Assembly: GCF_001677885.1 (NCBI RefSeq)
Contig: NZ_LOCQ01000056.1
Location: 62,001-126,000 of the forward strand
Direction: 5' to 3'
Source: Janthinobacterium psychrotolerans
Lineage (GTDB): Bacteria > Pseudomonadota > Gammaproteobacteria > Burkholderiales > Burkholderiaceae_D
Length of the DNA stretch: 64,000 nucleotides
Shown one piece after another: positions 18,153 to 19,726 of this stretch. The notes below the pieces were generated by a model. The model made no database searches. It had not been told where the DNA came from and saw only the letters and a list, made by a program, of their open reading frames with translations. A program made the position numbers and the translations under genes. Within the stretch, counting starts at the first letter, position 1; each line of letters opens with the position of its first letter.

Positions 18153-18932
18153 CTACGCTATCTGATTGAAAAGCTTAAAGAAGTTGCCCGTCGTCTGCTC
18201 GGCAACCTGGGCCAGCGGAATACCTTTCAACGATGACAGGTATTCCGCCACATGCGCCACATAACCGGGTTCATTCATGCGGCCACGAAACGGCACCGGT
18301 GCCAGGTAAGGCGAATCGGTCTCGATCAGGATGCGCTCCAGCGGCACTTCCAGCGCCACGGCCTGCAGGTCTTTCGCGCTCTTGAAGGTGACGATGCCCG
18401 AGAACGAAATATAGAAACCCATGTCGATGGCCGCTTTCGCCACCTCCAGGGATTCCGTAAAGCAGTGCATGACCCCGGCCACGCCACCATCGGCCACGCC
18501 AGCGCCCTCTTCACGCATGATGCGGATGGTGTCCTCGCTGGCCGCTCTTGTGTGAATAATCAAGGGTTTACCCGTGATTCTTGAAGCTTTGATGTGCGTG
18601 CGAAAGCGCTCGCGCTGCCATTCCAGGTCACCGGTCAAACGGAAATAATCGAGCCCCGTCTCGCCAATCGCAATGATTTTCGGATGGTCGGCCAGGCGTA
18701 CCAGGTCGTCCACCGACGGCTCCGGCGTATCTTCATAATCGGGATGCACGCCGACCGACGCAAAAATATGCGGATACTGCTCGGCCAACGCCAGCACCTG
18801 CGGAAAATCGGGCAAATCGACCGACACGCACAAGGCGTGCGTCACCTTGTTCTCGGCCATTTTGGCCAGAATCTCGGGCATGCGAGCAGCCAGCTCGGGG
18901 AAATTGATATGGCAATGGGAATCGATATACAT
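18153..18932 (-). CDS. tatD: TatD-family metal-dependent deoxyribonuclease
   Basis: 259 aa from ATG 18932, which gives the usual N-terminus MYIDSHCHI. Metal-binding motifs of the TIM-barrel hydrolase are in place: DSHCHI, GETGLDYF, IHTRAA, MHCFTES and ETDSPYLAP. Members are 3'-5' exonucleases active on DNA damage intermediates. It follows holB in the block mltG-tmk-holB-tatD-ankyrin, but an acetyltransferase gene and a structured repeat come between it and holB. Confidence 0.93.
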   Translation of the reverse strand: MYIDSHCHINFPELAARMPEILAKMAENKVTHALCVSVDLPDFPQVLALAEQYPHIFASVGVHPDYEDTPEPSVDDLVRLADHPKIIAIGETGLDYFRLTGDLEWQRERFRTHIKASRITGKPLIIHTRAASEDTIRIMREEGAGVADGGVAGVMHCFTESLEVAKAAIDMGFYISFSGIVTFKSAKDLQAVALEVPLERILIETDSPYLAPVPFRGRMNEPGYVAHVAEYLSSLKGIPLAQVAEQTTGNFFKLFNQIA

Positions 18933-18960
18933 AAACAGAATTGTACCGGAGCCAGACCAA

Positions 18961-19144
18961 CCATGTAGAAACCACATGGCGCATGAAGCGGCAGAAGACG
19001 CCAGCCCAGGCTCCCCGGGCCAAGCGAGCCCGAAAAATGCCGAGGGCAAGGCGCAGCGACGAAGACAGTACGCAAGTACGGCGAGGAAGCTGCAACGCCG
19101 CCATCGGCATTTTCTCGGGCTCGCGACTACGGCCCGCTGGTTTT
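18961..19144. other. Nested inverted-repeat element, candidate structured RNA
   Basis: Starting at the left: a hairpin CCATGT-7 nt-ACATGG (18961-18979); then a long stem in which CGGGCC and GCGAGCCCG with AAAAATGCCG (19016-19042) face CGGCATTTTCTCGGGCTCGC and GGCCCG (19105-19136). Inside it GGCGCAGC (19050-19057) faces GCTG-CAA-CGCC (19089-19099), and the tip is GTAC-GCAA-GTAC (19068-19079), a GNRA tetraloop when read on the plus strand. The plus strand ends GCTGGTTTT, terminator-like. It carries no coding frame of note and lies between two minus-strand genes. Confidence 0.6.
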
Positions 19145-19164
19145 AACGTTCTACGAATTAACGA

Positions 19165-19680
19165 TCACGCGACACGTTTACCTAAAATAATCAGATCACG
19201 CTCAACACCATCCAGATTCGCCACCTTCGGCAAATTGGCCCACTCCTCAAACCCGAACTTGCGAAACAAGCCCAGCGACGGCGCATTATGGCCGAAGATA
19301 AATCCCAGTACGGTATGCACCCCAACCGCAGGCGCATGCGCAATCGCCTCGGTCAAGCCATAAGCGCCAATCCCCTTGCCCCGTGCCTCCGGCGCAATAT
19401 ACACCGACAACTCCGCCGTGCCCGAATACGCCGGACGGCCGTAAAAATTCGAGTACGACAACCACCCCAGGACAGCGGGGGCAGCAGACTCATCGGCCAA
19501 AGACTCGATGATCCACAAAGGCCGCTTCTCCGGCGTATGCTCATGAAACCAGGCCAGGCGCGACTCGACCGTCACCGGCTCCGTATCGGCCGTCACTTCG
19601 CGCGAGGCGATGGTGGTGTTATAGATGGCGACAATGGCAGGCAAGTCGGCAAGTGTGGCAAGGCGGTGGCGATAGCTCAT
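19165..19680 (-). CDS. GNAT-family N-acetyltransferase (phosphinothricin acetyltransferase-like)
   Basis: 171 aa from ATG 19680; a TTG at 19692 would add four residues. The N-terminus LPAIVAIYNTTIASREVTAD and the acetyl-CoA loop ELSVYIAPEARGKGIG match the pat/bar-like branch of the GNAT fold, which acetylates amino groups of amino-acid-like compounds such as phosphinothricin or methionine sulfoximine. The substrate here is unknown. The gene occupies the place between holB and tatD where many beta- and gammaproteobacteria carry pilZ. No clear ribosome binding site is seen. Confidence 0.87.
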   Translation of the reverse strand: MSYRHRLATLADLPAIVAIYNTTIASREVTADTEPVTVESRLAWFHEHTPEKRPLWIIESLADESAAPAVLGWLSYSNFYGRPAYSGTAELSVYIAPEARGKGIGAYGLTEAIAHAPAVGVHTVLGFIFGHNAPSLGLFRKFGFEEWANLPKVANLDGVERDLIILGKRVA

Positions 19681-19726
19681 GTGATGTGTCAACTATGAAT
19701 GGCAACTATTTGTTTTAAAAGACGAA

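Follow-up and report, generated by a model that had tools for sequence, protein, structure and literature searches.

The structured element that lies between an acetyltransferase gene and tatD in the DNA analysed here, a stretch of 64,000 nucleotides from Janthinobacterium psychrotolerans (the window), is probably best explained as an old, end-less copy of a mobile hairpin repeat that belongs to a family built around the core of the Neisseria Correia element (CREE/NEMIS) and that has a putative RNA role at gene 3' ends. A previous reading of this DNA from its letters alone (the sequence-only reading) had placed the element between these two genes, and indeed the coding genes do not account for it. 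Its parts and neighbours are:

19014-19142, unstranded: conserved hairpin unit, defined by sharp conservation edges in 107 aligned copies and by the fold; it has a basal stem 19016-19021/19131-19136, a long stem spanning 19024-19124 and a T-run at its right end
19033-19120, plus strand: core common to the phylum-wide family and the Neisseria Correia element
19048-19052, plus strand: 5' bulge AA, then near-invariant GGC (A2 alignment columns)
19094-19099, plus strand: 3' bulge AAC, invariant in A2, then GCC
19053-19093, plus strand: stem P2 (19053-19057/19089-19093), which encloses the tip
19068-19079, plus strand: tip helix GTAC-GCAA-GTAC, loop sequence variable
19033-19037, plus strand: A-run in the sequence, the U-run of a minus-strand transcript
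19110-19113, plus strand: T-run in the sequence facing the A-run, the U-run of a plus-strand transcript
18980-19013, plus strand: left arm, weakly conserved, without a remnant of a terminal inverted repeat (TIR)
18961-18979, plus strand: 6-bp hairpin CCATGT-N7-ACATGG, unconserved, outside the element
19165-19692, minus strand: GNAT acetyltransferase gene, whose stop codon and the hairpin's right end are 22 bp apart
18153-18932, minus strand: tatD, downstream on that strand

The predicted fold of 18961-19144 is strong on both strands. The plus strand reaches -87 kcal/mol versus -64.6 (sd 4.2) in shuffles (z -5.4), the minus strand -90.9 kcal/mol (z -4.2), and none of 200 shuffles matched the fold on either strand. 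The structure described from the letters alone is thus real, with its long interrupted stem, inner helix and GTAC-GCAA-GTAC tip, and GCTGGTTTT is present as stated. Alignment with 106 other copies delimits a conserved unit of about 19014-19142 (CCGGGCC...GGCCCGC), with its left edge at CCGGGCC and an abrupt drop of conservation outside. In the window copy, the near-invariant GGC after the 5' bulge pairs with the GCC at 19097-19099. Other parts of the original design did not hold. The 6-bp hairpin lies outside the element, because it is lost in the ortholog of another species (L155) and in a hairpin-deleted locus (L154), and the GNRA cap is incidental: the loop is GCAA here and GCAT, GCCA, GAAT, GATA, AAGT or others elsewhere.

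The element is a dispersed repeat. The genome-wide search that the sequence-only reading had advised gave 40 BLAST matches in the window genome, 29 of them near full length, and the covariance model R2 finds the hairpin, of about 128 bp, at 37 places there. Hairpin copies were found in 21 of the 25 Janthinobacterium genomes searched, the window genome included. A search for carriage by plasmids, phages and E. coli gave one partial match on a Massilia plasmid and none in phages or E. coli. A count of the tip motif over the order includes possible coding matches (e.g. QYKQYGK) and is not taken as copy number. At the window locus itself, species G011 has an orthologous hairpin copy, G009 has kept the arm and the right end while the hairpin is gone, and in two more distant species the intergenic region is short and contains no hairpin. 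In two further congeners (L158, L159) the gap between tatD and the acetyltransferase gene holds several hundred extra coding-looking bases and no hairpin. Elsewhere, tandem arrays of two to four hairpins occur (L068, 5903-6703; L121, 1-506; L048; G006:C133:1-503), some with a single left arm, in units of about 128 or 228 bp.

Truncated copies are one-sided. Seven right-half-only copies and not a single left-half-only copy were found in the window genome (G000), and several start at the hairpin tip:

C4:259604-259664, right-half copy
C9:88374-88431, right-half copy
C18:109063-109124, right-half copy
C8:151138-151182, right-half copy
C17:71150-71198, right-half copy
C4:240319-240387, right-half copy
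C35:13819-13876, right-half copy

Such copies would be explained if extruded hairpins were cut at the tip and the gene-distal side was lost; assembly artefacts may be an alternative source.

Many relatives of the hairpin are the cargo of a miniature element (MITE) of about 262 bp with IS4-type ends that resemble those of IS4 of E. coli. Among the 107 distinct Janthinobacterium copies in the fetched loci, a loose match identifies an IS4-type end on one or both sides of 41, and about 20 are flanked on either side by TAATGCCGTTCAGTTA(G/A) ends, the elements being about 250-270 bp long. The target duplications of these relatives are 9-14 bp long. The congener G011 carries an autonomous IS4-family insertion sequence whose 18-bp ends are identical to those of the MITE, and this element is a likely source of the MITE transposase; four near-identical copies of it were seen there (L224, L228, L229, L230). 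The suspicion that the element is a small mobile repeat is thereby borne out by dispersed copies, by relatives with MITE ends and target duplications, and by a matching autonomous element. The window copy has no remnant of an IS4-type TIR, and no target-site duplication is evident from comparison with the ortholog and the element-free loci; its descent from a MITE is something we therefore infer from the relatives. Eleven of 66 copies without ends retain a match to a decayed end that exceeds the 95th percentile of shuffled sequences, the window copy not among them. Copies without IS4-type ends, the window copy included, are probably older. Precise excision of the hairpin was considered and rejected, since the junctions of hairpin-less MITEs differ and these are thus deletions. 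When empty sites were rebuilt, 15 of 17 were terminator-like, flanked by an A-run on the left or a T-run on the right, versus 15% of random positions. The IS4-type MITEs of Janthinobacterium appear to target intrinsic terminators (L125, L128, L130, L135, L138, L115 and others).

The core of the hairpin reaches far beyond the genus. Model R1 has matches in 64 of 321 genomes of the class and R2 in 105 of 398 Pseudomonadota genomes at E 1e-4, the E-values of both scans being rough. The common core reads CAAGGCG - P2 - CGnAGRC - P3 - loop - P3' - gnCAAGG - P2' - CAACGCnG, and the window copy has both bulge motifs, the internal loop and the covarying P1, P2 and P3 in this order, which places it in the wider family. 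R2 scores it with 80.6 bits (E 2.9e-18) as the sole significant match in the window; this copy is part of the training set of R2, and independent models and copies agree. In other groups the core sits in long palindromes with quite different ends. In some distant MITEs (L246, L247, L251) a single pair of ends encloses two head-to-head cores. A search of open-access papers for the motif strings turned up primers and chance matches only.

Correia elements were stated to occur in Neisseria only (PMC5039591, PMC2649163). A Burkholderiales member of the family matches two Neisseria gonorrhoeae records at no fewer than 39-40 places each. The Neisseria element at one of them (L266) is bounded on both sides by Correia repeat variants from the list in PMC5039591. 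R1 and R2, both trained without Neisseria, match the Correia element with E 9e-23 and 4e-17, respectively, and an alignment of the window core with CREE scores better than all 2000 dinucleotide shuffles.

Other copies exist and their stems covary, the two properties on which the sequence-only reading had made its proposal depend. In an alignment of 30 relatives, whose distant members had been picked solely by the tip motif, 19 of the 24 pairs have changed on both sides; cells with such two-sided changes number 110 versus 30 in shuffles, and none of 500 shuffles was as high. For a second set, 45 wider relatives gathered in part by means of a structural model and to that extent biased towards pairing, the alignment gave 345 two-sided changes versus 115 in shuffles. 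The P2 pair 19055-19091 has gone from A-T to G-C between the window copy and its ortholog.

It is tempting to speculate that the Correia core is not an invention of Neisseria but a single branch of an ancient folded module with conserved bulges and covarying stems, borne by MITEs across the Pseudomonadota and placed in Janthinobacterium at gene 3' ends, where it replaces terminators; we regard this as somewhat more probable than its opposite. Within this reading, the unrelated ends of the carrier MITEs would imply different transposases. If dozens of genera have this core in MITEs whose ends differ, its conserved bulges would have to serve something besides a single transposase, most simply a host protein or an RNA function. 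It would then become possible to test in harmless bacteria what Correia elements do, a question of long standing. A covariance model is now available that describes a large class of intergenic repeats so far without annotation, and the Janthinobacterium repeat would be an example of a MITE that enters terminators while supplying a hairpin flanked by A- and T-runs.

The gene context points to the strand. Of 46 independent Janthinobacterium loci, 37 have the neighbouring gene ending towards the hairpin's right end (p 4e-5; median distance 67 bp); the genes were predicted from ORF length and third-position G+C rather than taken from annotation. The left end shows no gene-orientation bias in these loci. 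A small sample of 24 scorable loci from outside Janthinobacterium did not show this 3'-end rule. Since genes enter the hairpin from its right end in most of the 46 loci, the relevant transcript would most likely be the minus strand, here probably the 3' end of the acetyltransferase mRNA and not a plus-strand small RNA. Because the A-run faces the T-run, either strand would read as a G+C-rich hairpin followed by U's, which makes a bidirectional terminator plausible, at about an even chance; a simple terminator scan, restricted to short loops, called no standard terminator at the element. In Neisseria transcripts, RNase III binds to CREE, with cleavage or protection as the outcome (PMC2649163), and by analogy this suggests processing of the hairpin RNA by RNase III as a second, compatible role, for and against which we would weigh the chances equally.

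The following course of events may be proposed. The element would be an old copy, without terminal repeats, of the dispersed Janthinobacterium hairpin repeat. IS4-type transposition would have carried the repeat into existing terminators, sites that can tolerate a substitute terminator, and the window copy would later have lost its ends. Read-through transcripts would carry the minus strand of the hairpin, with its right end usually shortly past the stop codon of the gene, and the RNA hairpin would act as a bidirectional terminator and/or give the acetyltransferase mRNA a 3' end that RNase III processes.

The most serious alternative is that the repeat is selfish or decaying MITE debris without any role in RNA. 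Its position at gene 3' ends would then simply be where insertion is tolerated, its orientation could result if the terminators that it entered were themselves oriented, and the paired changes would stem from arm correction during replication. Independent deletions of the hairpin, the right-half-only copies and the decayed arms fit well with such a fate. Arm correction within a palindrome, or gene conversion between copies, could indeed mimic some of the covariation. However, the unpaired bulges and the internal loop are near-invariant across many genera, and for the bulges this near-invariance is beyond the reach of either process. We therefore regard debris as possible but clearly the less likely explanation.

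Far less probable is a plus-strand small RNA with its own terminator, as the sequence-only reading had proposed, here taken as a gene that extends from the left arm to GCTGGTTTT and was amplified genome-wide. The strong plus-strand fold and the T-run at the right end speak for it, and three small RNAs of Coxiella are derived from MITEs (PMC5896051). However, no sigma-70-like promoter was found on the plus strand in 18900-19250, the left arm is unconserved, genes run in from the right end, and in 15 of 19 same-direction loci the plus strand is antisense to the neighbour gene at the right end. The covariance check against Rfam that had been recommended matched no family: in Rfam 15, at gathering and at permissive thresholds, none came near threshold for the element. 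A REP/REPIN moved by a RAYT (Y1-type) transposase would agree with a dispersed intergenic palindrome and with the Y1-transposase-like matches in the window genome, but is very improbable, as no copy in the genome-wide list lies beside a Y1-transposase-like gene, the unit is much longer than a REP, and the ends and 9-14-bp duplications of the relatives are of IS4 type.

CREE is among the known systems closest to the element, here read as an old copy of a mobile, Correia-core hairpin repeat. Its parts, GACAAGGCG - stem - CGCAGACAGTAC - loop - GTACGGCAAGG - stem - CAACGCCG, have the same order and fold as the window core, and both CREE and the Janthinobacterium repeat are intergenic, multi-copy and MITE-like. 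CREE has the 26-bp Correia repeat TATAGTGGATTAA..., whereas the window copy and the Janthinobacterium MITEs are without it, the latter having IS4-type ends and 9-14-bp duplications instead. The Correia repeat ends are absent from the window and its surroundings, even when 3 mismatches are allowed. Judged by its sequence, the window element thus shares the CREE core but is not a CREE, because the Correia repeat is missing. IS4-type MITEs have the same ends as many Janthinobacterium copies, whereas the window copy has no such end and the conserved core is also carried by MITEs with other ends. ERIC of Enterobacteria is an intergenic palindrome, as here, but has no clear sequence similarity to the family; copies from Klebsiella align in the right place with AAGGCG/CAACGC at E 0.1 and 0.8, which is noise level, and none from E. 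coli does so. With marginal scores only, membership of ERIC in the family is not claimed. By its published description, QMITE2 of Coxiella burnetii likewise has full-size copies with ends and small copies without; its copies are mostly located at the 3' ends of genes, and relatives of it occur in other proteobacteria (PMC5896051).
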